Origin: a virus
IMG/VR virus record: IMGVR_UViG_3300010151_000201
Location: 1-22,396 of that record
Reading direction: 5' to 3' (one strand)
DNA: 22,396 nucleotides
Part shown: positions 5,066 through 18,971 of the stretch, one piece after another
How the letters are laid out: every line of letters starts with the position of its first letter
Position numbering within the stretch: the stretch's first letter is position 1
Translations under genes and position numbers: made by a program
The notes under the pieces: generated by a model
Told to the model about the DNA's origin: nothing
The model's database searches: none
The model's input: the letters and a program-made list of their open reading frames with translations, nothing else

Positions 5066-7453
5066 ATGGGTGTACCAGTAGTGGTATTTGTAACAGCAAA
5101 TTCAAATGATTCAAATACTGCCAATAGTTATGGTAAGGATCATTATGGTGAAGTATTTAATGACAAGGTTCCTCAATCTGGGAAATATGGAACTGACTCA
5201 TCAACTCCTGAGGATTTGCGTGGAGAATTTCAAGTAGATGTATATAACTTGGAAAGGTCCATAACTGGTGTACAACATTTATATTCAAATGGTGATCCAA
5301 TTGTTGGTTCTACCGTTTATAGTACTGCATATTCTACTCGGTCTACTTTAGGCACTTTCCCATTAGGAGGAGGTGGATTTGAACAAATGGAATTTAATAC
5401 TGGAGATAATACCTCATCTATTTCGGGTCAAACATCTGGAGCTGGAACGTTTCATAATTATGTAGCATTTGCTAATACTGGAAATGGGAATAATATTAGT
5501 TATAGTGCAACTGGCGGGATAAATCCTACTGGTTCAGCAGGTACTTCACATGGGCCGACTACGGCATATAATAGTTCTACACCTTTTGCGAATATTGAAT
5601 TTGATTGTTCACATACATCATGTTCATTGAAAGCATCATCTGGAATTATAGTTTGGACACCAACTGCGGGTGGAGGTCATGGGGGCTCAGCTGGTACGGC
5701 TCTTGCTAATAATGTAACTAAGGGAATTTTTGCTCCGGAGTATGTGGATACCTACAATCAAGAGCAGGAAAACTGGACGCATACTTTTTCACCTATAAAC
5801 AGTGAGTCGCGAGGTGGAGGGTACACTCGGGCGGGATTCTTAGAGAGAGCGTGGAGTTCAAACGGCGCAGGAGAACTTACCACTTATACTGGTTATTATG
5901 GTGGCAGAGCTGAAATGTGGTATCCAGGATTATCATATTCAAATGAAACCCCTAGCGGAAGTATGGTAGAGTCTCATAGAGGCTCAATAATTTTTAAGGT
6001 TATGCCAGATACAGAACACACTATGACAGCAAATATGGTTACAACTACTGTAGGAGTATCAAGTATATCAGTTAGTGCGCATGGTTCTAGTATAGGTTCT
6101 AGTGGACCACAATCGGGTTCTCCTACATCATCTGGAGCCCCAATTGCTACACACTCACGGGTAACTGTTACTACTAGTGCTGCACATAAAATGACAGATA
6201 CACAGAATCAAGTAGTAATTGCTGGAGGAACAAATATTACTCATGTAAATGGGTTATGGAATGTAGCAACAGTTCCTTCTACAACTTCATTTACCTATGA
6301 TGTTCCATATAGTTCAGCCAGCACGACTTCTGTTACTGGAACTCTTACTTGTGTGACTTTTGATGGAATTGATAAAACAGGTGCAATAGTAAAATCTGGG
6401 TCTAGTGTAGTAGGAGAAATTGTACATGGAGGCAATGCTGGAAATAATAAAGTTATTTTAAGGGGGGATGTAAGTCTTAGTGGATCTCATACTATTCATT
6501 CTAATTCTACATCTACTTCAATAGCGACAGTTAATTTTACTGGAAGTCGAACATATAAATCAATGTTTCATGATGCTGGATTAGAATTAAATGAGACTAC
6601 TGGAGCGATTACCAGTAATGGAACTTTTGATGGAATTAATGATAAAGGACTAAAACAATTAGATGGTTATTTTCCTAAGTATAAGAATGGGAGAGATTAT
6701 GCAGTTAATCAAACAAAAACGGATGGTACAATTTCACAAGCTCCTATTGCAGTAGGGGCTGATTCAGATATTGTAACTATTCATGGGGGTGATGGTGAAC
6801 TTCCAAGTTCTGTATTTTTTAAATCTGTAATTTATGCAAATGGACATACAGCGAATGTAAAATATGCGACAGCATTAGGAAATTCTAGTGTTAAACCTTC
6901 TGTTTCAGTGGAGAATATCGCAACGATTTCAGGTCCTGATGAAGGAGCTGCTGGAGAAACATATTCATTAACTTATAATGATATACAGTTTCCGACACCA
7001 AATACTTCTTCATATTGGGCGCTGAAACGGGCAGACAGTTTGAGAATTATTGATCCTGATGACACTAGTTCTTCACCAGATATTTTAACATATGTGTCAA
7101 CTGCTGAAATGTTTTATACACCAGTTCATTTTACAATAAGAGCGATGAAAAATTCTTCTCATTCTCCAACCGGTAGTTCAACTAAGACTATTAGTGGTTG
7201 GGGAACATATGAAAATGGAGAACACAATTATGTAGATGGAAGACTATACTTAAAGGTTTATAATAATACAGATGCGGATAGAGATGGTATAATAACAGTT
7301 TATGGAGATGCTAATAATGCAGACTCTGCCACGTCTGATAATTTTAATAGAAATGAAACCGCAAAAAAGATAGACAATGTTGCGGTGACTAATGAAGAAT
7401 TTTTACAAAACAACTACTCTAACGGGAATTTTACCGTTATTAGTTCAGTTTAA
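5066..7453 (+). CDS. Virion structural protein of unknown role, 795 aa, in the spike region
   Basis: I do not recognise this protein as a T4 homologue. It is Gly/Ser/Thr/Asn-rich, low in Lys and Cys, and reads as beta-rich throughout, like phage fibre or spike decorations. Residues 365-429 form a short beta module (AAHKMTDTQNQ, then NGLWNVATVPSTTSFTY) resembling the FCCH-type modules of phage tail proteins; a related copy is in the large wedge protein at 14757-14987. A further patch near residues 455-500 is rich in short beta strands (KVILRGDVSLSGSHTIHS). Near residue 736 there is DADRDGIITVYGD, which is only partly like a calcium loop. No signal peptide, membrane segment or chaperone motif was seen. 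It lies between the gp5-like needle and the PAAR tip gene with 11-bp gaps on each side, so a role at the needle, such as sheath, decoration or receptor contact, is an inference from position. Confidence 0.6.
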   Translation: MGVPVVVFVTANSNDSNTANSYGKDHYGEVFNDKVPQSGKYGTDSSTPEDLRGEFQVDVYNLERSITGVQHLYSNGDPIVGSTVYSTAYSTRSTLGTFPLGGGGFEQMEFNTGDNTSSISGQTSGAGTFHNYVAFANTGNGNNISYSATGGINPTGSAGTSHGPTTAYNSSTPFANIEFDCSHTSCSLKASSGIIVWTPTAGGGHGGSAGTALANNVTKGIFAPEYVDTYNQEQENWTHTFSPINSESRGGGYTRAGFLERAWSSNGAGELTTYTGYYGGRAEMWYPGLSYSNETPSGSMVESHRGSIIFKVMPDTEHTMTANMVTTTVGVSSISVSAHGSSIGSSGPQSGSPTSSGAPIATHSRVTVTTSAAHKMTDTQNQVVIAGGTNITHVNGLWNVATVPSTTSFTYDVPYSSASTTSVTGTLTCVTFDGIDKTGAIVKSGSSVVGEIVHGGNAGNNKVILRGDVSLSGSHTIHSNSTSTSIATVNFTGSRTYKSMFHDAGLELNETTGAITSNGTFDGINDKGLKQLDGYFPKYKNGRDYAVNQTKTDGTISQAPIAVGADSDIVTIHGGDGELPSSVFFKSVIYANGHTANVKYATALGNSSVKPSVSVENIATISGPDEGAAGETYSLTYNDIQFPTPNTSSYWALKRADSLRIIDPDDTSSSPDILTYVSTAEMFYTPVHFTIRAMKNSSHSPTGSSTKTISGWGTYENGEHNYVDGRLYLKVYNNTDADRDGIITVYGDANNADSATSDNFNRNETAKKIDNVAVTNEEFLQNNYSNGNFTVISSV
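6158..6352 (+). repeat. FCCH-like beta module, copy in 795-aa protein
   Basis: Residues 365-429 contain SAAHKMTDTQNQVVIAGG followed by NGLWNVATVPSTTSFTYDV, parallel to the module at 14757-14987. The two share the NGL-x-x-(V/I)ATVP core. One copy only is visible in this gene. Confidence 0.45.
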
Positions 7454-7761: not shown

Positions 7762-7926
7762 ATGGCTTTAGAGTGGCAAAAACCAGGAGAATCTAAACCA
7801 GAAATGGTTAAGACATTAGAGGACCTTAAAGATGCAGCACATGAGGCAATTCGAGAACTAAAAGAAAGAAGAAAAAGGTTAAAGGAAAAACTCTCAGAGG
7901 ACAAAGATGGCGAAATGGGAAAGTAA
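7762..7926 (+). CDS. Small charged helical protein, 54 aa, unknown function
   Basis: A short gene with a good ribosome site: GGAG overlaps the stop codon of the PAAR gene and sits 7 bases before the ATG. The product starts MALEWQKPGESKPE, then from about residue 15 to 48 is almost entirely helix-forming and strongly charged (EDLKDAAHEAIRELKERRK), with hydrophobic residues spaced in a heptad-like way, so a short coiled coil is likely. It ends with an acidic and Lys tail. No catalytic motif is visible. It overlaps the next gene by 20 bp in a different frame, which with the ribosome site argues for real translation. A chaperone, linker or minor virion component of the spike region are all possible; none can be shown from sequence. 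Confidence 0.72.
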   Translation: MALEWQKPGESKPEMVKTLEDLKDAAHEAIRELKERRKRLKEKLSEDKDGEMGK

Positions 7927-9826
7927 AACTCTAGCTGAAAGTGGTATTATAAAAGCAGTAGGAGAACAAGCTACTTCTGCTATTAATACTGTTAATTCTG
8001 TACTAGAATTAATTTCTGGTGGAGCAGAAATAGCAAAGAAGTTTCTTACTGCTTTAGGAAATCCTGCAGCTGCAGCAATAGCTGCGCTTGCTGATCAAAT
8101 AATTGCCGCTCTTAATGATTATAAAGAATTGGGATTTTTTGCTCTAGTTATCAATCCATTTGATGAAAATTATGGGGGGAAAATTAAAGGAGAATATGGA
8201 CTTGAAATGGTTACAGATGATAATGGGAATCCATATTTTAAATCTAGTCAAGTAATGAATCCTGATTCTCCATTTGATGGATTTACATTTACTGTAAGTG
8301 AGAACTATAGAGAGACTTTAACTCTTGAAAATTTAACAGCTGCAGAAGGTGGTCCTTGGAGAGATAGATTAGGAAGAAGTAAAGAAATGAAGGGGTTTGT
8401 TCCACCAATTCCAAAAATTGTTACACCACCCAAATTTGTTCTTGGTGGATATGACCCCGCTACATGGACAGGAACTATTCAATCAGTAGATACTTTTCCT
8501 TCTCTTCCTGCTCCTGATTGTATAAAATTAATGGCAGACTCATTTGATGATGAGGGGGATATCCCAAAATATGAAGTTATTAATAAAACAGAACCTATTT
8601 CTAAGGGTCCATTTACAGAGGGTGGAGGAGCAGTTTCTACTTATGATCCCCTTAAAGATTATACTATTCCTCTTTTTAAATCCGCAAATACACAACTAAC
8701 AACCGCAGAAAGAGTCCCATTAACCAGACAGATTCAATCTGGTAGACCGAATTATTTGGGAAGTCCAGGAGTTAAAGTTTCAGCTCTTGCTATTGTAGTT
8801 GCAGCTTCTGATTTCCAAGAATTTATCGATGCATTTAAATCTTTGGGTAGTTTCTTAGGGAAAGGTGTTCCAGATTTAAGTAAAATAACAGATGCACTTG
8901 AAGACTTATTGACTCCTGACCCTATTGCTCTTACGATTGAAGTTAATACAACTTATGGAACATTTGCAGAAGGGGATGTTATTAAAGGAGATGATTCAGG
9001 AACAGTAGGAAAGGTTTCAAAAGTTATAAGTGCGGAAGCTTCTATTAGAACTAGAACAATTTATACTTTACAAAATGATGAATTTGGGGATCTTAATAAA
9101 ATAGTTAAAGAAGTAATTGATACTAATAATCCTGTCATTTGGGAGGATACAAAAATAGAATATCAACCCCTTTGGGATCCGACAAATCGTTTTATTCCTG
9201 GAGAAAAGGTATATCAAGCAGAAGAAAAAGTTAGAGACAATCCAGATGGGACATCGACAAAATATTATAGAATTATAGGAAGTCAATATAAGAATAATGT
9301 ACTTGGAATGAATTTTGGCAGAGCTGATTTTACTAGTGAAGATTCTCTTCCAAAATATGGACACATTAAGGGAATAGATGCAATTGCCCCAAATTCAATT
9401 CCACCAGATTTCTTTTCTATTAAAGCGGCGGAATTGGTTCCTGGATATACTGATTTCTTTGATGGTCTTATAGAAATGGCTAATGGTCTAAAAGGATTTG
9501 CTGTAGAGACTTCAGAGTTTATAGATGCATTAATTGATGTTATAGATGACTTGATTGAATTCTTTGAAGAGTTGGTGGCTAAGATTACTGCTTTCTTAGA
9601 ATTTTTCACAAAAGGACTTCCACCAACTGGAATTTATATGCTTGGAATTACTACTACTGCTGGCAATGATGCAATAAAGACTGCATTAACAAGTTCAGAC
9701 AATTCACCTCCTGAATCATTGAAATATAGTGGTGGAGTTCTTTTGGTATCAGTTGAAATTAATGGGGTTGACCCCTTGGTTACTTTTGGGGGGTTATTAG
9801 GATTAGATTTTGAATCAGTTGGATAG
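7907..9826 (+). CDS. Virion structural protein of unknown role, 639 aa, with amphipathic helices
   Basis: I do not recognise a T4 equivalent. The N-terminus (about 17-75) is a long Ala/Leu/Ile-rich helix region (NPAAAAIAALADQIIAAL) followed by LGFFALVINPF. The centre (about 80-510) is mixed and beta-rich, with several Pro-rich loops (PPIPKIVTPPKF near 166-178) and one GE-x-I-x-G type module near 348-373 (TFAEGDVIKGDDSGTVGKV). The C-terminal part has a second strongly amphipathic acidic helix (about 538-570, FIDALIDVIDDLIEFFEEL) followed by KGLPPTGIYMLGI. These helices are not classic transmembrane segments because they carry regular Asp/Glu, but they could bundle or touch membranes. The start ATG at 7907 overlaps the 54-aa gene by 20 bp and has GAGG just upstream. 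Position between the PAAR tip and gp25 suggests a baseplate or spike-associated part. It is probably the last gene of the hub/spike transcript, since a promoter-like motif follows it. Confidence 0.65.
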   Translation: MAKWESKTLAESGIIKAVGEQATSAINTVNSVLELISGGAEIAKKFLTALGNPAAAAIAALADQIIAALNDYKELGFFALVINPFDENYGGKIKGEYGLEMVTDDNGNPYFKSSQVMNPDSPFDGFTFTVSENYRETLTLENLTAAEGGPWRDRLGRSKEMKGFVPPIPKIVTPPKFVLGGYDPATWTGTIQSVDTFPSLPAPDCIKLMADSFDDEGDIPKYEVINKTEPISKGPFTEGGGAVSTYDPLKDYTIPLFKSANTQLTTAERVPLTRQIQSGRPNYLGSPGVKVSALAIVVAASDFQEFIDAFKSLGSFLGKGVPDLSKITDALEDLLTPDPIALTIEVNTTYGTFAEGDVIKGDDSGTVGKVSKVISAEASIRTRTIYTLQNDEFGDLNKIVKEVIDTNNPVIWEDTKIEYQPLWDPTNRFIPGEKVYQAEEKVRDNPDGTSTKYYRIIGSQYKNNVLGMNFGRADFTSEDSLPKYGHIKGIDAIAPNSIPPDFFSIKAAELVPGYTDFFDGLIEMANGLKGFAVETSEFIDALIDVIDDLIEFFEELVAKITAFLEFFTKGLPPTGIYMLGITTTAGNDAIKTALTSSDNSPPESLKYSGGVLLVSVEINGVDPLVTFGGLLGLDFESVG

Positions 9827-10254: not shown

Positions 10255-12141
10255 ATGTCTGATGTTGCTTCAAAACTCAAAGTATCTGAATTAGATTTTG
10301 ATACTATAAAAACTAATCTAAAAAACTTCCTGAGTGATCAAAATGAATTATCTGACTACAACTTTGATGGGTCAGCTATGTCTGTCCTTTTGGACTTGCT
10401 TGCCTATAATACACATTACAATGCATTTTATTTGAACATGATTGTAAATGAGATGTTTCTTGATACAGCATCTATTCGCAATTCTGTAGTATCAAGAGCA
10501 AAACATCTTGGCTATACTCCATTATCTGTTAGGGGAGCAAAGGCTTATGTGGATCTTACAATTACTCCAGCAGATACTCCCGCAACCATTGTTGTTGAAA
10601 AAGATACACAATTTTCATCTACGATAAATGGAATTAGTTATATATTTGCTACAGCTAATTCTACTACAGTTAATGTAAATTCTAATGGAGTATACACTAC
10701 AGCAAATGTAGAGTTGTCACAAGGCATTCCACTTACTCATCGTTATACAGCAAATACTCAAGATCCTGACCAGAAATTTGTGTTACCAAATGCTAACACA
10801 GATACTAGTACTCTAACAGTAAGAATACAAACTTCAGCTACAAGTTCAAATCTTTATGCTTATGCTCTTGCAAATGATACAACAACAGTCAACTCTACAG
10901 CTAATACATATTGGTTAGAAGAATCTGAAGATGGAAAATATGAGGTAGTATTCGGAGATGGGGTTGTTGGTAGGAAGCCAATTACTGGTAATATTGTTTT
11001 ACTTTCCTCATTGGTTGCGGATTCTACAGAAACTAATGGAGCAAAAACCTTTTCTGCAGTTAGCGATGTTGGTGGATATTCTAATGTAGCAATTTCTACA
11101 AGAACAGTAGCATCTGGTGGTTCAGATAGAGATTCAATTTCTAAAATTAAGTTTAATGCACCAAGAAATTATCAAGCACAAAATAGAGCAGTAACTATTA
11201 ATGATTATATAAGAATTTTACAAAGAGATTATCCTGCTGCTGAATCTGTTATTGCATGGGGTGGAGAAACAAGTGACCCGCCAGTTTATGGGAAGGTATA
11301 TATTGCGATAAAGCCTGCATCTGGACTTACTCTTTCTACTGCGACAAAAAATTATATTAAAGATACAGTTCTTGGAAAAAGAAATGTAGTTTCTATTACT
11401 CCAGAAATTCAAAATCCAGATTATATGTATGTGACAATAGATTCAACTGTTAAATATGACTCTACAAAAACTACAAAATCTGCTGAAACGATTAAATCAA
11501 CAATTTCAAATACCATATATCAATATGGAGTAGATAATCTTGAGAATTTCTCGAATGAATTTAGGTATTCTCCTATGGTGAAAAAAATTGATGAAACTGA
11601 ATCATCTATTGAAAGTAGCTTAACAACAGTAAAACTTAAACGGTCTTTTACTCCAACTTTAAATGTTGCTTTATCTTATACCTTAAATTATTCTAATGAA
11701 CTTTTTCAAATTGCAGGAGCGGCATCAATTTCTAGCACCCAGTTTTCTCATAGAGATGATAGCGAGGTGTTAAGAACAGGTTGTTCTTTACAAGATTCTA
11801 ATGGGATAATGCAGGTTTATAGAACTGTTGGAGCATCCAGGGTTACTGTTGCAAATAATGTTGGATCTGTAACGTATGGTTCTGGAAAAGTAGCACTTAC
11901 AACTTTTGCTCCAGTGGTTATTTCAGATGGCTCAGCAAATGTAGCGATTACAGTTACTTTAGCATCTAGTGATGTTACTCCAATTAGAGATCAGATTCTT
12001 CTTATTTCAAATTCTGATATTACAATTGCTATGGTTGATACTGCGGGAACAGGAACTGACACTTCTGTAAGTTCTACTTCCGCTAGTGGTTCTACTACTG
12101 GTGGTTCAGCTGGAAGTGGTGGAGCGGGGAGTAGCTACTAA
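10255..12141 (+). CDS. 6: Baseplate wedge protein gp6
   Basis: gp6 forms the continuous inner ring of the baseplate by dimerising between wedges. The product has 628 residues (T4 gp6: 660). The N-terminus is strongly family-like: KLKVSELDFDTIKTNLKNFL, SDYNFDGSAMSVLLDLLAYN, THYNAFYLNMIVNEMFLDTA and SRAKHLGYTPLSVRGAKAYV (within residues 7-100). A baseplate J-like core follows, with YEVVFGDGVVGRKP near 225-240 and INDYIRILQRDYPAAESVIAWGG near 315-340. The last 30 or so residues (from about 598) are a pure Ser/Thr/Gly/Ala tail, which looks like a flexible extension. The stop codon TAA shares its last base with the ATG of the next gene, so the two are translationally coupled. gp25 lies 6 bp upstream, so gp25, gp6 and the giant protein behave as one unit. 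Confidence 0.92.
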   Translation: MSDVASKLKVSELDFDTIKTNLKNFLSDQNELSDYNFDGSAMSVLLDLLAYNTHYNAFYLNMIVNEMFLDTASIRNSVVSRAKHLGYTPLSVRGAKAYVDLTITPADTPATIVVEKDTQFSSTINGISYIFATANSTTVNVNSNGVYTTANVELSQGIPLTHRYTANTQDPDQKFVLPNANTDTSTLTVRIQTSATSSNLYAYALANDTTTVNSTANTYWLEESEDGKYEVVFGDGVVGRKPITGNIVLLSSLVADSTETNGAKTFSAVSDVGGYSNVAISTRTVASGGSDRDSISKIKFNAPRNYQAQNRAVTINDYIRILQRDYPAAESVIAWGGETSDPPVYGKVYIAIKPASGLTLSTATKNYIKDTVLGKRNVVSITPEIQNPDYMYVTIDSTVKYDSTKTTKSAETIKSTISNTIYQYGVDNLENFSNEFRYSPMVKKIDETESSIESSLTTVKLKRSFTPTLNVALSYTLNYSNELFQIAGAASISSTQFSHRDDSEVLRTGCSLQDSNGIMQVYRTVGASRVTVANNVGSVTYGSGKVALTTFAPVVISDGSANVAITVTLASSDVTPIRDQILLISNSDITIAMVDTAGTGTDTSVSSTSASGSTTGGSAGSGGAGSSY

Positions 12142-15100
12142 TGCAATCTGATGGTGGAGTTCTTTATACTCAAATAGAAGGTCAACTCCCTTCATTTATA
12201 CAAACCAATCATAGCAAATTTACTACGTTTGTTGAGAAGTATTATGAATTTCTTGAACTCAATCTCCTTACCTTTACTGATCTTGATCTTAATGAAGATA
12301 AACCAGTACAAGAAAGTGCTGATGTAACTTATGTAGTTTCAGTTACCACAGGTAATAATGATTTTAGTGCTAACACCAACAAATTTTATCTTGATGGAAC
12401 GGTTTCTCCAGACGTTACCATAGACCCCACTAAGAAAACTATTTTTGACCAAGGTGATATTTCACTTCTTACTCATACTTTAAAAATATCTGACACTCCA
12501 GATGGAATTTGGGGAGTTGGTGGGGAAGAAAATGCCAATACTGAAGTAACATATTTTTCTGGAATACAGGAAATTCTCTTTAAAGATGAAGCTGAAAATT
12601 CTTTAGTAAGTGAAGATGCTGTTCCTTTTTGTGCTGAGCTTGTTGATGTAGCAAGAACTATTATTGAACCCAATCCAGATAATGCAGGAAAAACCTTTTA
12701 TTATTATTGTAATACACATTCTGGAATGGGTGGTTCTATTGTCTTTTCTAATACATCTTCTTATATTTCTCTTGAGAATGGAAATACTGCAGTTGGTAAT
12801 ACTAATTTAAATTATATTGATTATGAAAATCCAAACAGACAAGGTGAACAATTCCTTAGTGGTGAAACAATTGAGGGAGCAAATTCTGGTGCACAGGGAG
12901 TTGTTAGAGGTAAGTATTCCACAACACAAGCATATATCCAAGAAACTAATAATGGGGCATTTCAAGTTGGTGAAACAATTTCTGGATTGGAATCTAGAGT
13001 TACTGCGAATGTTAGTTCTTATACCAGACAACCAATTAATGCATCAAGAAATGTTAAATCTTTCCAAGATGTTGATAAGGCACCATTAGGATTTGTTGAA
13101 CTTTTCCGCAAGGAGTTTTTACCAGGACTTCCTGCGGATATGCTTTCTAGAAAGCAAGACGCTCTTAAACATATTAAAGATTTCTATAGAGCGAAGGGAA
13201 ATGAAGATTCTTTTAGATATATTTTCAGACTTCTTTATGCAAAAGAAGATATATCTTTTTATTATCCTAGTACTGATATTTTACGATTGTCTGATGGTAG
13301 ATGGACTCTCGACAAATCAGTTAAGATAGCAACCTCTCTTGCTAATAATATTGGAGTTTTTGTTGGACGAGAGGTGGTTGGTGAAATTTCTAATGTAACT
13401 GCACTTATAGAAAAATCTGAAAGTTATCAAATAGGTGCTACAGGTGTTACTGAATTATATTTGTCAGGCATTGATGCTAATAATGCGACCTCAGGATATT
13501 CAACATTTAAAGTTGATGAAAAAATTACAACGACCACAGCAGATGATAATGGAGATTATGGATCTGCGAATACTACTGGAGTTCTTTCTGGTGTTTCTAT
13601 TGATGCTGGTGGGTCGAACTATCTTGTGGGTGATGATGTTCTAGTTTCTGGTGGTGGTGGTGCTCAAGCAGCGGCTAAGGTTGCATCAATATCTGATGCT
13701 ACAATTAGTCAATTTGATATTATTGATGCAGGAGATGGATATACAATAGGTGATACAGTCTCTTTTGTGAATGAGGGAACTGGTGGAACTGGTGGTGCGG
13801 CGCGTGTTAATTCTATTATCCCCACCTTTACTACTGTACATATTTCAGATATTATTAATACCTTTAAAGATAATAAAATTAATGCAGCAGCATATTCAGC
13901 GCCTTGGACAGAATATACTCGAAATAATCATATTACTTCAAATTCTACAACTACTTTTACTGTTCCTTATGATGGATTATCAGGTTCAGCACCAAAAGAG
14001 GGTGATTTAATAATATCATTTCAAAGTGGTGAGACTATTACAACTTATACTCCGGATAATTCCTTTTTTGCAACAGTTATTGCTGCAACTGGTTCAAGTG
14101 TAACATATGCTCAAGGATCAATAGTTTCTTCCAGCCTTACAGGTGATGTTACTATAAGGGGATTTAGTGATGATGATGCTGTAACTATCTATGATCTTAC
14201 AAAAAAAGGAGATGGTACAGTAATTGGAGCTGATGGAACCGCGGCGGCTTTTTATGCAACTGGTGGATCTTTTAATATCAATGGAACTCCAACTGCTAAT
14301 ACAGAAGCGGCGACCACATATGGAATGGCATCCGTATCAGATATTGAGTTAGGCGCTATTCGTGGTATTCAAATCCTTTCCTCTGGTCAAGGTTATGTAT
14401 CTATTCCACAAGTTACAGTCGCAAATACTATTACAGAATCTTATAAAGCTGATGTTTCAAAAACTGGAGCTAATTCTGTTTTTGTACAGCTTGCGGGTGC
14501 AACAGCAAATCAATTTACTGCTAATACAAGAATTGAAAATGATGCTCAAACTGCGGTTGGATTTGTTTTAGATTATATTGATAAACCTACAACTACAACA
14601 TTAGCTACTGGTGGTAGTGTAACTTTGGTGGCTACTGGTAACACCCATCTACGTGTCCAGATGATAACAGCGAATAGTTTTTCAGCTGATGAAAGATTAA
14701 CTACATTTAAGAATGAGGCGGGCGGAAGTCCAATAGGAATTGGAGATTTTACTACTGCTAATATTACACTTGCTGGTACTACAACCGCAACTCTTACTCA
14801 AGCAGAACATGGTTATTCTACAGCTCAAAAGATTAATTTATCTGGAATATCTACAGGGGTTACTGCTGATGATACTAAGTTTAATGGGCTTCATGCTATT
14901 GCTACGGTTCCTACTACAAACACATATACTATTACACTTTCTGGTACTACAACCACACAATCTGTACCTAATGCCTCAGTTAGAAAAATAGTTACCGCAA
15001 ATACTTCTTCATCTAATACCGTCTTTGCGAATACTGGAATACCTGGAAATAATGCAACCATTTCTATTGCATCTATTGCGATTGGTGCTATAGAATCTCT

Positions 15101-18100
15101 TACAATAACCAATTTTGGTGCGAATTATACTACATCACCCGAGATAGATGCATCAGGTTCAGGAGATGGAAACGCAACTCTTACTGCTCAACTTGGTGCC
15201 CTTGCTGAATATGCAGGATATTTTGATGGTAATTATGGTCTTTTAAGTACTATTGGTAAACTTCAAGACAATTATTATTATCAAGATTTTTCATATGTTA
15301 TTAAAACAGATGTGGATGTAAAAACCTATCGTGATAAGATTCTTAATTTGGTTCATCCATCTGGAATGCTTATGTTTGGAGAGATTGCTATTACTTCAGA
15401 CTCTTCAGCAAGTATGTTTGATAATGCTACACGGAATGCAGCAACTACCATTGCCAATACTCAACACGGAATAGATGTTCCTCTATATCAACATCATGAT
15501 ATTGAGATTATTAAACAAACAAACCTTGTACATAGTATGGCTGATACTCAACTTTGGCCAATACTTTTTCCTCCTAATGCTCAACGGGCTATAGATGCAA
15601 CTTTAGAAAGTCCACACGTTGACTTTGATATTGTTTTAGAACAAAATATAGATGGTATAGCGTTAGAAGAATCTGGACTTGATGGTAGTTTTTTATATGA
15701 ATCTACTGGAGAAATTCTTTTAGAATATGATGTTGATGGTAGAGATAGGATCATAGAAGAAACTGTTGATTATATTTTGAATGAGGATGGTACAGTAATA
15801 GTACATGAAGATATAGATGATACTATTAATTTAGTTTTTGAGCAGGGGGGATACCCCGTTACAGAAGTTGCAATACTTACAGCTGAGGGAGGAAGCTATG
15901 ATGAGTATGAGCTTGTTACAGAAACATTTAGTCAGCGTTTTGAATTCGAGCAAGCCACTGGTGGACAAAGATATGATGTAGAACATTCAGCTTCTTCCGT
16001 TGGAGGCTACCATCAAGGTACTGCGTATATGGAAATGGAAGTTTCTAGTGGTGGTGGAATCCCTGTTAATACAATCAATGCGGGTAATCGACTTGCTTAT
16101 ATGCAATTAGAAGATTATGATCGAAGCTCACCAGATGGGAAAAATTCACCTATAAACATATTACAAGAACAAGACCTTCTTTCTCACATTTTACATGAAG
16201 ACACTGAAGTTCAACTCTTACAGGAAGATGGTAGAACAGACTTTCCACACGTTTCTACAGAAGGAATTATTCTTTTAGACCAAACAGATGCACTTTCTAG
16301 GAATTTTCTTTTACATGAAGAAGAAAAACTTTCATATCATATTACTAATTCTCATGGTGGTGATGAATTTTATATTTTACCAGAAGCTGATGGCGATTAT
16401 TATTTCATAAGACAAGAAGGAATTAGCCCAGCAGATTATGGTGATTTTTTCTTCCTTGAAGATGGGCGTGTTGCGGAAGATTCAACAACTGGTGGAAGAG
16501 TTATGGGCTTTGATTCCATAGATGAGAAATCTTTTATCACACTCGAAAGACATGATTGGATAGATGATACTCATATGAAGGGAGAATCTACTTTTGAATT
16601 TGGCTATTCACTTCCAGTTATTCAAATGCCATATGCTGAAACGGGATCTGTTAAGATTGATTTCGGCCCCGCTTATGATCTTCTACTTGAGGATGGAAGT
16701 TATCTAATACTAGAAGACCCCAATGCACAAGCATATCCAACTTATCTTGCATTTGAAAACACCATGCAAGAAGAGATATCTAAGGATTATGTAGTTACAG
16801 TTTCTACTGGTACTGCTAATTTAGCAGATGGGATTGGATTAGAGGATGGTACAGGAGTTATAGAGATTGAAGGTGGTTTAGATAAGATTCTTTCTGAAGC
16901 TGGTGGCGATGTAATGTCTGATGTGATAAGAGAACCAATTGCTTTTGAAATCACACCTAAAGTTACTGTATCAGCAGTAACTTCAGACCTTATTCTTGAA
17001 GATGGTGGTAGAGCTGTACTTGAAGATTCTGAATATTCTGAAGATCTTTCCAGAAGTATTATTAGACTTGAAGAAGAATTGCTTCCTTTTGTTTCTCTAA
17101 CTTCTGGTTCATCACAATTTCAACATGCTGCTACATGGGGCAGAATAGATGAATACACAATACTTGGAAGTTTAATTTCTGCACAAGTTGGAGGTAAGGA
17201 AGAATTTGTTGCATTTGAATCAGTAGATATAGCACAAGCTGGTGTAGTTCTTCTTGAAGATGATTCTGGGAAAATGATTACAGAAAGATCAGTTATTCCT
17301 TCTTTTCCAGATGTTCAACCATTAGAAATTAACATTCCACTATCATCAGCTTTAGATCAAGCTCCTGGAGATGAAGTTGCACTTGAAGATGGTTCTGGTG
17401 CGGTTAAGCTTGAAGGAGATTATATTGGTCTTGAAGATGGTACTGGTGGAATTGCATTAAATCATACTTATGGAAGATTGGCAGAAGAAGATTTTGGTAG
17501 ACTTGCTACAGAAAGAAGAAGACTTCTAAATGAAATGAATTGGGCAAGGGCTGAATCTGATGGTGCAGTATCTAATTATTTTTATGAAGCACAAGGTGAA
17601 TTATCTCTTACAGGTGGAGAAGAATTTGAACTCTTGGCAGAAAATGGTGATAAGTATGTATCTGAATCTGTCGAAACTCCTATTTCTATTTCTTCTCTTA
17701 CTACTGAGGGGGGAGATTTTCTAGTTCAAGAGTCAGATCATTCTTCAAGGATAATAGGAGAATTTTCAGCAGATATAGACCAAACAGCAAAAATACTTTC
17801 AGCAGATTATGGAAGAAAAAATGAGGCTGTTGGAACTAATACACAATTTGAGGTTGACTTTGCTGCTCCTGTAACTTTAGAAGACGGAACCTTAATAACC
17901 CTTGAGACAAATACTTCACAAGATTATTTACTTGTTCTTGAAAATTCCAATGATAGAATATATGAATCCTTAGTTTTAGAATCTAATACTACAGGTGCTC
18001 CTGGTAGAATATCATCTGAAGAAGAAATTCAATATACTACCCAAAGATTGGTTTATCATGATCTTTTAGATCTAGTAACAGAAGAAGATAACATTTTGAC

Positions 18101-18971
18101 AGAAGAAATAGATAATGTTTTACAAGAAGATTATCTTGATAATATTGTACAAACGATTCCAATGGAAGATTTTGTAGCAAATATAGCTCTCGAAGGAGAT
18201 AAAACAGCGGATAGTATTTTACTTGAAAGTTATACTCCAGATACTACAGAGGGTGCGGTTACTGTGGGTGCTAATACTTATGCAAAACAATGGGGTGATA
18301 GTCAGATTACTCAATCTGGAACTACTGTTTCTATCGCCAGTGGTATATTCCCTTATGGAGCGGCTGGAGGAACTTTAAGATATGCAAATGGAACTGTTAC
18401 AGATATCACAGCTCTTAATGCGACCATGACACAAATTACTGTTGATAATTCAGCAACCGTTGGTTCCGCTCAAGATTATAGAATTTATTATGGAGATTTT
18501 GAATCTACACCGATACTAAATCCAAGAGTTATGAAGTGTGAAGTAGGAACTACAGATACTAATGAAATTGGAAGAGAATATCAATTTCTAATTAATGATT
18601 GGATTGATATAACAATACAAGGACTTTACAATCGACATGGAAATGATATTGTTCTTGAAGATGGTGAGAGAATACTTTATGAAGATGGAGAACTTACACA
18701 AGATGAAAATGTTATACTGTTAGATGATACAACTACAGATACGCCAACATCTTCTACAATAGGAAAATTAGGATATGAAGGTGATAATAATTTATTATTT
18801 GAAGATATACATTATAATGCGAAAATGCTTTTGTATGACGCTGAGAGATTTAGAATCAAAGAAATTGCTAATAACACTAGTATGATTATGTCATCAACCG
18901 AAACGGACTTTCAGACCCCAAGGTCTGATATAACTTTCTTTATAGAGCGAGAAGAGAGAATAACTTCTTGA
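12141..18971 (+). CDS. Giant modular wedge/structural protein in the gp7 position (2276 aa)
   Basis: Located between gp6 and gp8, where T4 has gp7 (1032 aa, peripheral wedge protein), so it is probably the functional gp7 equivalent; that is inference from order and from a framework known in marine T4-like phage proteins. Framework pieces: residues 15-42 (QLPSFIQ, FVEKYYEFLEL), 310-395 (FRKEFLPGLPADML, HIKDFYRAKGNEDSFRYIFR, YYPSTDILRLSDGRW) and 1045-1091 (YYYQDFSYVIK, LNLVHPSGMLMFGEIAI). Between the first two sit a cupredoxin-like domain (61-205) and two GE-x-I-x-G modules (233-293). Residues 480-1040 are beta-rich, with GG-x-NY modules and an FCCH-like module (873-949). From about 1150 to the end the protein is acidic, with degenerate LEDG repeats. 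No signal peptide or membrane segment was seen. Translation is coupled to gp6 by the TAATG overlap, with GGGGAG nine bases upstream. The single frame stays open for 6831 bp. Confidence 0.8.
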   Translation: MQSDGGVLYTQIEGQLPSFIQTNHSKFTTFVEKYYEFLELNLLTFTDLDLNEDKPVQESADVTYVVSVTTGNNDFSANTNKFYLDGTVSPDVTIDPTKKTIFDQGDISLLTHTLKISDTPDGIWGVGGEENANTEVTYFSGIQEILFKDEAENSLVSEDAVPFCAELVDVARTIIEPNPDNAGKTFYYYCNTHSGMGGSIVFSNTSSYISLENGNTAVGNTNLNYIDYENPNRQGEQFLSGETIEGANSGAQGVVRGKYSTTQAYIQETNNGAFQVGETISGLESRVTANVSSYTRQPINASRNVKSFQDVDKAPLGFVELFRKEFLPGLPADMLSRKQDALKHIKDFYRAKGNEDSFRYIFRLLYAKEDISFYYPSTDILRLSDGRWTLDKSVKIATSLANNIGVFVGREVVGEISNVTALIEKSESYQIGATGVTELYLSGIDANNATSGYSTFKVDEKITTTTADDNGDYGSANTTGVLSGVSIDAGGSNYLVGDDVLVSGGGGAQAAAKVASISDATISQFDIIDAGDGYTIGDTVSFVNEGTGGTGGAARVNSIIPTFTTVHISDIINTFKDNKINAAAYSAPWTEYTRNNHITSNSTTTFTVPYDGLSGSAPKEGDLIISFQSGETITTYTPDNSFFATVIAATGSSVTYAQGSIVSSSLTGDVTIRGFSDDDAVTIYDLTKKGDGTVIGADGTAAAFYATGGSFNINGTPTANTEAATTYGMASVSDIELGAIRGIQILSSGQGYVSIPQVTVANTITESYKADVSKTGANSVFVQLAGATANQFTANTRIENDAQTAVGFVLDYIDKPTTTTLATGGSVTLVATGNTHLRVQMITANSFSADERLTTFKNEAGGSPIGIGDFTTANITLAGTTTATLTQAEHGYSTAQKINLSGISTGVTADDTKFNGLHAIATVPTTNTYTITLSGTTTTQSVPNASVRKIVTANTSSSNTVFANTGIPGNNATISIASIAIGAIESLTITNFGANYTTSPEIDASGSGDGNATLTAQLGALAEYAGYFDGNYGLLSTIGKLQDNYYYQDFSYVIKTDVDVKTYRDKILNLVHPSGMLMFGEIAITSDSSASMFDNATRNAATTIANTQHGIDVPLYQHHDIEIIKQTNLVHSMADTQLWPILFPPNAQRAIDATLESPHVDFDIVLEQNIDGIALEESGLDGSFLYESTGEILLEYDVDGRDRIIEETVDYILNEDGTVIVHEDIDDTINLVFEQGGYPVTEVAILTAEGGSYDEYELVTETFSQRFEFEQATGGQRYDVEHSASSVGGYHQGTAYMEMEVSSGGGIPVNTINAGNRLAYMQLEDYDRSSPDGKNSPINILQEQDLLSHILHEDTEVQLLQEDGRTDFPHVSTEGIILLDQTDALSRNFLLHEEEKLSYHITNSHGGDEFYILPEADGDYYFIRQEGISPADYGDFFFLEDGRVAEDSTTGGRVMGFDSIDEKSFITLERHDWIDDTHMKGESTFEFGYSLPVIQMPYAETGSVKIDFGPAYDLLLEDGSYLILEDPNAQAYPTYLAFENTMQEEISKDYVVTVSTGTANLADGIGLEDGTGVIEIEGGLDKILSEAGGDVMSDVIREPIAFEITPKVTVSAVTSDLILEDGGRAVLEDSEYSEDLSRSIIRLEEELLPFVSLTSGSSQFQHAATWGRIDEYTILGSLISAQVGGKEEFVAFESVDIAQAGVVLLEDDSGKMITERSVIPSFPDVQPLEINIPLSSALDQAPGDEVALEDGSGAVKLEGDYIGLEDGTGGIALNHTYGRLAEEDFGRLATERRRLLNEMNWARAESDGAVSNYFYEAQGELSLTGGEEFELLAENGDKYVSESVETPISISSLTTEGGDFLVQESDHSSRIIGEFSADIDQTAKILSADYGRKNEAVGTNTQFEVDFAAPVTLEDGTLITLETNTSQDYLLVLENSNDRIYESLVLESNTTGAPGRISSEEEIQYTTQRLVYHDLLDLVTEEDNILTEEIDNVLQEDYLDNIVQTIPMEDFVANIALEGDKTADSILLESYTPDTTEGAVTVGANTYAKQWGDSQITQSGTTVSIASGIFPYGAAGGTLRYANGTVTDITALNATMTQITVDNSATVGSAQDYRIYYGDFESTPILNPRVMKCEVGTTDTNEIGREYQFLINDWIDITIQGLYNRHGNDIVLEDGERILYEDGELTQDENVILLDDTTTDTPTSSTIGKLGYEGDNNLLFEDIHYNAKMLLYDAERFRIKEIANNTSMIMSSTETDFQTPRSDITFFIEREERITS
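12321..12755 (+). other. Cupredoxin-like domain within the giant wedge protein
   Basis: Residues 61-205 read as a cupredoxin-type Greek-key domain: a first strand (VTYVVSVTTG), KFYLDGTVSPDVTI, then IFDQGDISLLTHTLKISDT with His112, and near the end KTFYYYCNTHSGMGG. The spacing Cys190-x2-His193-x2-Met196 equals the copper-ligand loop of amicyanin, and His112 sits where the first His ligand is expected (sequence like F-D-Q-x-D-x-S-x-x-x-H-x-L-x-x-S). Codons: His112 at 12474-12476, Cys190 at 12708-12710, His193 at 12717-12719, Met196 at 12726-12728. The fold call and metal binding are inferred from this pattern; a metal-free structural role is possible. Confidence 0.6.
12840..13022 (+). repeat. 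Tandem GE-x-I-x-G beta modules
   Basis: Two degenerate copies follow the cupredoxin-like domain: QFLSGETIEGANSGAQGVV (about residues 237-255) and AFQVGETISGLESRVTANV (273-291). Related single copies occur in the 639-aa protein (near 8959), later in this gene (near 14015), in gp8 (near 20384) and in the DUF4815 protein (near 21183). They look like small surface beta modules common in phage virion proteins. Confidence 0.55.
12958..12980 (+). repeat. 23-bp near-identical repeat, copy 1 (giant wedge gene)
   Basis: This stretch encodes FQVGETI and matches 21183-21205 in the DUF4815 gene at 22 of 23 bases (T versus A at the tenth base). Both lie in GE-x-I modules, so the match may reflect module copying or only codon preference on a shared motif. 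Confidence 0.55.
13578..13817 (+). repeat. Paired GG-x-NY / G-x-GY modules in the giant wedge protein
   Basis: Residues 480-559 hold two copies of a glycine-rich module: VSIDAGGSNYLVGDDVLVSG with GGGAQAAAKV, then FDIIDAGDGYTIGDTVSF with GTGGTGGAARV. More divergent copies are IQILSSGQGYVSIPQVTVA (near 14368) and LTITNFGANYTTSPEI (near 15100). A related one is in gp8 (ITVIAGGNNYSNATISIV, near 20056). They suggest stacked beta repeats. Confidence 0.55.
14757..14987 (+). repeat. FCCH-like beta module, copy in giant wedge protein
   Basis: Residues 873-949 contain AEHGYSTAQKINLSG, then FNGLHAIATVPTTNTYTITL. The order A-x-H-G/K, Q-x-I/V, N-G-L, ATVP-x-T-x-x-F/Y-T matches residues 365-429 of the 795-aa protein encoded at 5066-7453. 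Modules of this sort in phage tail proteins are often annotated as E1 FCCH-like; the name is from memory of the family and implies no ubiquitin function. Confidence 0.45.
15775..18710 (+). repeat. Degenerate LEDG repeat array (acidic C-terminal region of giant protein)
   Basis: Across residues about 1212-2190 the unit (hydrophobic)-L-E-D-G-(S/T/G/R)-x(3-6)-(L/I)-x-E-(D/G) recurs irregularly. Clear LEDG copies: FFLEDGRVAED (near 16450), LLLEDGSYLILEDP (16681), IGLEDGTGVIEIEG (16831), LILEDGGRAVLED (16990), VALEDGSGAVKLEG and IGLEDGTGGI (17378-17455), VTLEDGTLITLE (17871), IVLEDGERILYEDGE (18647). Variants include ILNEDGTVIVHED (15775), LLQEDGRTDF (16216) and VLLEDDSGKM (17248). Spacing is uneven and copies are diverged, so this is a protein-level repeat, not a DNA tandem repeat. 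The region is strongly acidic. Confidence 0.7.

Follow-up and report, generated by a model that had tools for sequence, protein, structure and literature searches.

Amicyanin, the secreted periplasmic electron carrier of methylamine dehydrogenase, has a ligand loop whose exact C-x2-H-x2-M spacing is shared by a module that sits, in contrast, inside a phage wedge protein. Wedge proteins of the gp7 kind are known from the Kyanoviridae (Melnitz, Mosig, HTVC008M), and these agree with the carrier of the module in gene position, N-terminus and central region but have a short linker at the site where the module is found. Here, we describe this module and its relatives, starting from a stretch of virus DNA (22,396 bases; in the following, the window).

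The wedge protein and its insertion

Genes in the window are ordered as tail tube cap, gp53-like wedge subunit, tail protein, hub/lysozyme, PAAR protein, gp25-like protein, gp6-like protein, a wedge protein of 2276 aa and gp8-like protein, and the order gp25-gp6-wedge-gp8 is also that of Melnitz, Mosig and HTVC008M. The 2276-aa protein is assigned to T4-like gp7 by its place in the gene order and by wedge homology in parts other than the module: its residues 297-1099 match PHROG 17744 ('baseplate wedge subunit', E 2.4e-40), and it scores 25.4 bits against Pfam Baseplate_wedge, slightly under the 27-bit cut-off. The C-terminal half (residues about 1200-2276) carries recurrent L-E-D-G motifs, with eight exact copies of LEDG in residues 1101-2276 vs 0.09 expected from shuffles, and to judge by its sequence this half looks like a degenerate repeat region. 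Two ORFs within the baseplate block, 5066-7453 (795 aa) and 7907-9826 (639 aa), gave no match in a PHROG search at 1e-5. The features that matter here are these:

22,396 bases: virus record (IMG/VR-type) with the gene content of a T4-like baseplate block
12141..18971, + strand: baseplate wedge protein, 2276 aa, in gp7-like position between gp6 and gp8 homologues; carrier of the module
12141..12314, + strand: conserved wedge N-terminus (residues 1-58), immediately preceding the insertion
12321..12755, + strand: cupredoxin module (residues 61-205), an insertion that follows the conserved N-terminus of the wedge protein
12474..12476, + strand: His112 codon (candidate copper ligand 1; in the family, the motif is FDQSDSSNSxHPLRF; invariant in profile A1, see below)
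12708..12710, + strand: Cys190 codon (candidate ligand 2; also present in L003 and L076; lost only jointly)
12717..12719, + strand: His193 codon (candidate ligand 3; also present in L003 and L076; lost only jointly)
12726..12728, + strand: Met196 codon (candidate axial ligand; also present in L003 and L076; lost only jointly)
12846..13340, + strand: wedge sequence after the insertion, from about residue 237, with the GETI-x-G motif; BLAST homology resumes

The module in this wedge protein is an insertion. While residues 1-58 are 35-47% identical to their counterparts in Melnitz, Mosig and HTVC008M, the module is absent from this site in four relatives that share the N-terminus (the same three and S-RIM12); in the first three, homology starts again past the linker at the GETI motif (window residue 237), and BLAST aligns residues 237-556 with Melnitz 82-396 (33% identity, E 3.8e-39), Mosig and HTVC008M being similar. 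A wedge orthologue, L076, has the module at the same site and in a form more canonical than the window copy, which contains a 23-residue insertion relative to it. Between the two, the N-terminus shows a dN/dS of 0.08 and the flanks are 79% (the N-terminus) and 67% identical, the module 43%, and all four ligands are kept.

A first-pass annotation of this DNA had named His112, Cys190, His193 and Met196 as a complete copper-ligand set and, checked residue by residue, all four are where it had put them: His112 in the context F-D-Q-G-D-I-S-L-L-T-H-T-L, and Cys190, His193 and Met196 in the C-terminal loop YYYC-NT-H-SG-M-GG. An upstream His combined with Cys, His and Met in a C-terminal loop, which is how a type 1 site appears in sequence, is thus found in the window copy and also in the family profile. 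Our data support the view that residues 61-205 are an autonomous cupredoxin domain whose candidate ligand set is complete and of amicyanin spacing. We also considered Cys190 as a disulfide partner and rejected this for want of a conserved second Cys: such a role is unlikely because the 2276-aa protein has three Cys in total and one of them, Cys164, is missing in L003.

Kinship to blue-copper proteins

Taken alone, the window copy has no significant cupredoxin match in Pfam, NCBIfam or the PDB sequences, which is due to its divergence and to the 23-residue insertion. A profile of 104 relatives, built without the window sequence and without its close wedge orthologues, nevertheless finds the stretch with 54.3 bits (E 7.5e-15 for 10,000 sequences) and aligns all four ligands, a result far removed from chance. 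The coordinates first given for a cupredoxin-like domain in this protein, residues 61-205, are right. Kinship of such profiles to cupredoxin families is likewise borne out, their best matches among solved structures being plastocyanins, amicyanins and rusticyanin. For profile A1 (108 members) the six best PDB matches are plastocyanins and a pseudoazurin, albeit weak ones (E 0.2-0.4); profile A5, which is small and made of divergent members, matches plastocyanins only (best E 0.015); and profile A4, which includes one bridging flavobacterial cupredoxin, reaches E 3.7e-5 with its best PDB match and has amicyanins (E 0.25-0.8) and rusticyanins lower in its list. In the plastocyanin alignments of A4 the first His is one column off (HP vs PH), so its equivalence to the plastocyanin ligand rests on the H-x-phi-x-F pattern together with structure.

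As for Pfam PF00127 (Copper-bind), a module from Woeseiaceae passes with 24.8 bits vs a cut-off of 21.2, and 20/108 phage modules match at E up to 1, the best at 8.1e-4 and below the curated cut-off; by that family's own cut-off, the phage copies examined are not members. A PF00127 search of this virus record gave no match. Profile-profile comparison (hhalign) of the module with bacterial pseudoazurin-type proteins is weak, with a probability of 49% if the bridging L537 is included and 3% if it is not, and aligns the loop and not the first His; we do not count it as support. Scores of the module against classical cupredoxins are marginal at the sequence level. The profile searches and the Pfam match of the Woeseiaceae module support membership of the module in the cupredoxin superfamily.

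Predicted structures agree with this, and the earlier expectation of a cupredoxin fold held, cupredoxins filling the top of the match lists for both models that we compared. The AlphaFold model of the window copy, made together with 107 relatives, is of moderate confidence (pLDDT 74.5, with a low-confidence stretch at model residues 70-84), and that of L042, a canonical relative, has a pLDDT of 97.5 and a pTM of 0.90. With VIA-align, both best match the N-terminal domain of 2dv6 (window copy: Z 9.2, rmsd 3.5 A over 103 residues; L042: Z 9.6, rmsd 2.5 A over 97 residues), and these values exceed the Z of 8 below which a match may reflect just a common arrangement. Foldseek and VIA-align matches of the window model include bilirubin oxidase, rusticyanin, laccases and copper nitrite reductase, nearly all its top rows being multicopper oxidases, copper nitrite reductases or rusticyanin, and one superfamily dominates the lists of both models. 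Judged by strand content and top matches, the fold is the Greek-key beta sandwich of about eight strands typical of cupredoxins.

Joint conservation and joint loss of the ligands

The upstream His, which was not contained in our loop search pattern (C-x2-H-x2-M, DNA level), is present in 98% of 116 full-length copies among the modules found by the loop pattern alone. Modules collected by N-half motifs only have C-x2-H-x2-M in 84/85 readable cases, which upholds the amicyanin-type spacing claimed for the loop, and the 85th has exchanged His for Asp and Met for Leu together. All four ligands are invariant in profile A1. We then consider a set of 227 distinct modules with readable sites, drawn from three further anchor scans that avoid the ligand positions: 207 are intact, none has a single loss and 2, 6 and 12 have double, triple and fourfold losses, respectively, so the four positions are conserved and lost only in groups. 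Independent permutation of the four ligand columns (5000 trials) predicts about 55 single losses, with a minimum of 38, and in control sets made up of four different conserved columns, single losses amount to 29-96%. Since no single loss is seen where about 55 are expected, the four ligands act as one unit.

The ligand-loss rate of about 9% in this set is an overestimate, as loci already fetched by the loop pattern were excluded, which leaves the zero count of single losses unaffected; and in view of their relatedness we estimate that the degenerate copies represent perhaps a dozen independent lineages rather than twenty. Degenerate modules, whose loops were read by eye, match at control columns in 75% vs 91%, and the domain remains recognisable. 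Joint loss is weaker evidence within the three loop ligands, which lie in a seven-residue span, than is the coupling of the loop to His112. Even so, the loss pattern is the strongest evidence for a metal site, and the simplest unit that combines a cupredoxin fold with these four residues is a type-1 copper site. Joint retention and joint loss of the ligands point to a metal, probably copper, in many marine phage particles; copper binding itself we infer from fold, family and ligand set. We therefore favour, at a probability of roughly 75%, a reading in which residues 61-205 are an autonomous cupredoxin that is inserted as an accessory module and, most likely, holds one copper ion in the released virion.

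A contrary view sees fold reuse only: the cupredoxin sandwich would act as a spacer or adhesion module of the Ig-like kind, its ligand residues being an inherited relic or a structural motif. Ig-like accessory domains are common in phage tails, some members of the module family have weak matches to carbohydrate-binding modules, and ligand-free modules do occur in phage structural proteins. In one such lineage (L398, L407, L415, L432, L439) the body is intact (FDQSD..N and EYTTGVT) with all four ligands replaced (LPLRF, YYYAEGT), and this is apparently a metal-free branch of the family. Given these ligand-free copies, the fold persists without ligands and is useful without metal in some proteins. 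A relic, however, should decay residue by residue, and 0/227 modules with a single loss is not what such decay leaves behind; neither is the L076 module, which is down to 43% identity with its ligands still fixed. To our minds, fold reuse alone is an unlikely account.

We see only a slim chance that the site is purely structural and made for a metal other than copper (Zn(II), Ni(II)) or for Cu(I) only. The protein is synthesised in a reducing cytoplasm, where zinc would be likelier to enter a Cys-His-His-Met set, and structural metals are already found at the spike of T4-like tails, the window itself encoding a PAAR protein. Yet Met is uncommon as a fourth ligand for zinc, the Cys-x2-His-x2-Met loop with its upstream His is the type-1 copper set, and the module's relatives by fold and by sequence are copper proteins. 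Finally, the idea that His, Cys, His and Met came together by chance in a beta-rich insertion of unrelated origin, which could draw on the window copy alone having no significant Pfam or PDB sequence match, is already refuted by 54 bits from a profile without the window sequence, by conservation of the ligand set in hundreds of relatives and by the structural matches to cupredoxins, and deserves practically no credence.

Spread, possible roles and comparison with known systems

The loop pattern YYC-x2-H-x-GMGG occurs at no fewer than, that is at least, 120 loci in viral contigs, and motifs from the other half of the module in at least 600 IMG/VR stretches, 595 of them confirmed. Among GenBank phages, 47 records match at E 1e-5, these being cyanophages, pelagiphages and Methylophilales phages in which the carrier protein usually goes by the annotation tail fibre or virion structural protein, and the BFVD structures contain 67 viral matches at E up to 1e-3. 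Cultured carriers include cyanophage S-TIM5, pelagiphage Baldr and Melnitz, which grows on OM43. With a length of about 100 aa, the module is mobile and occurs in wedge proteins, tail fibres and further virion proteins of marine phages: Melnitz has it in a tail-fibre gene and not in the wedge, L076 and the window have it in the wedge, and it thus moves from one virion gene to another; in the wedge-like proteins L054, L110 and L037, modules are placed elsewhere. Since most modules match PHROGs 708, 27200, 30742, 677, 693 and 6005 (wedge, fibre, virion structural), these groups contain the domain. One type of phage protein, 200-290 aa long and met repeatedly (L128-L131, L135 and numerous viral loci, L042 among them), starts with a sequence like M-x-FASGR-x-YGISDRSGFRY and ends exactly with the module. 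Two beta-sandwich proteins in BFVD, A0A481Z6J5 and A0A481Z7Q7 from Pithovirus LCPAC302 and LCPAC304, match the phage module in structure (E about 1e-5, 22-23% identity).

Most of the 80 matches listed for prokaryote genomes are from marine organisms, and some of them lie on phage-like contigs; a plasmid search with the module gave no match. By architecture, the cellular carriers are lipoproteins with an LxACGGGG signal and cadherin domains, found in SAR86 as well as in further gammaproteobacteria, and one subtilase that has a P-domain (marine gammaproteobacterial lipoprotein and subtilase loci L149, L151, L173, L176, L182). A 'peptidase S8' of phage S-BM3 also carries the module and, set beside the bacterial subtilase, suggests that whole architectures have been exchanged. 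The proposal that a cupredoxin fold is displayed on the baseplate wedge stands as far as its presence there goes; it is not special to the wedge and is widespread in virion proteins of marine phages and surface proteins of marine bacteria.

How might a copper-loaded accessory domain work? Once inserted into the gp7-like wedge protein, the module would be made as an apo-protein in the reducing host cytoplasm and probably loaded at lysis or in seawater, so that the released virion would hold one ion, most likely copper, with another soft metal as an alternative. The metal would most likely lock and stabilise the outward-facing accessory domain, which could then act as a display or contact module on baseplate and fibres. 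Possible uses are a metal lock, surface contact through a metal-shaped binding loop, and a redox or copper-dependent trigger; we prefer lock and surface contact because carriers are spread over many different virion proteins and ligand-free copies persist. By analogy, sharing of the module with bacterial lipoproteins suggests a role at cell surfaces. That marine tailed virions bear copper-loaded, possibly redox-active cupredoxins on their outside and use the metal in infection seems to us improbable; it might take the form of a latch of baseplate and fibres that responds to redox state or to copper, or of docking on copper-handling systems at the host surface, a copper counterpart of the iron 'Ferrojan horse' that has been proposed.

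The 'Ferrojan horse' literature discusses iron in phage tail fibres, and of the unusual virion chemistry first claimed for this locus it is the blue-copper type of site that is unusual, a metal on the virion not being unprecedented. Our literature search, in a library with few subscription journals, turned up no description of cupredoxins in phage virions. Should the site be loaded, a substantial fraction of marine phage particles would be copper proteins with a redox metal on the virion surface, linking phage structure to the trace-metal chemistry of the ocean; copper, chelator and ligand mutants would offer a handle on how phages of SAR11, OM43 and picocyanobacteria attach; and several large PHROGs known only as wedge or fibre proteins would gain a functional label. 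Since SAR86 lipoproteins have the module in common with phages, one may ask if copies from phages and from bacteria encounter each other on a shared surface.

In comparison with known systems, the plastocyanin/azurin family (PF00127) has in common with the module its beta-sandwich, an upstream His in an H-x-phi-x-F strand context and a C-terminal Cys-His-Met loop. Its members are free electron carriers, whereas the module is inserted into virion proteins and, in bacterial lipoproteins, placed at the C-terminus; after the first His it has Pro in place of Asn (Thr in the window copy), and the signature YYYC..HSGMGG is different from theirs. The best structural match of both models, the N-terminal cupredoxin domain of the Hyphomicrobium denitrificans copper nitrite reductase (2dv6), is 14-16% identical to the phage module and part of an enzyme, while no enzymatic domain adjoins the latter. 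In the six PHROGs above, the annotation refers to the protein as a whole and mentions neither a cupredoxin nor a metal site. What we describe is a known fold with a known site in a new and widespread setting.
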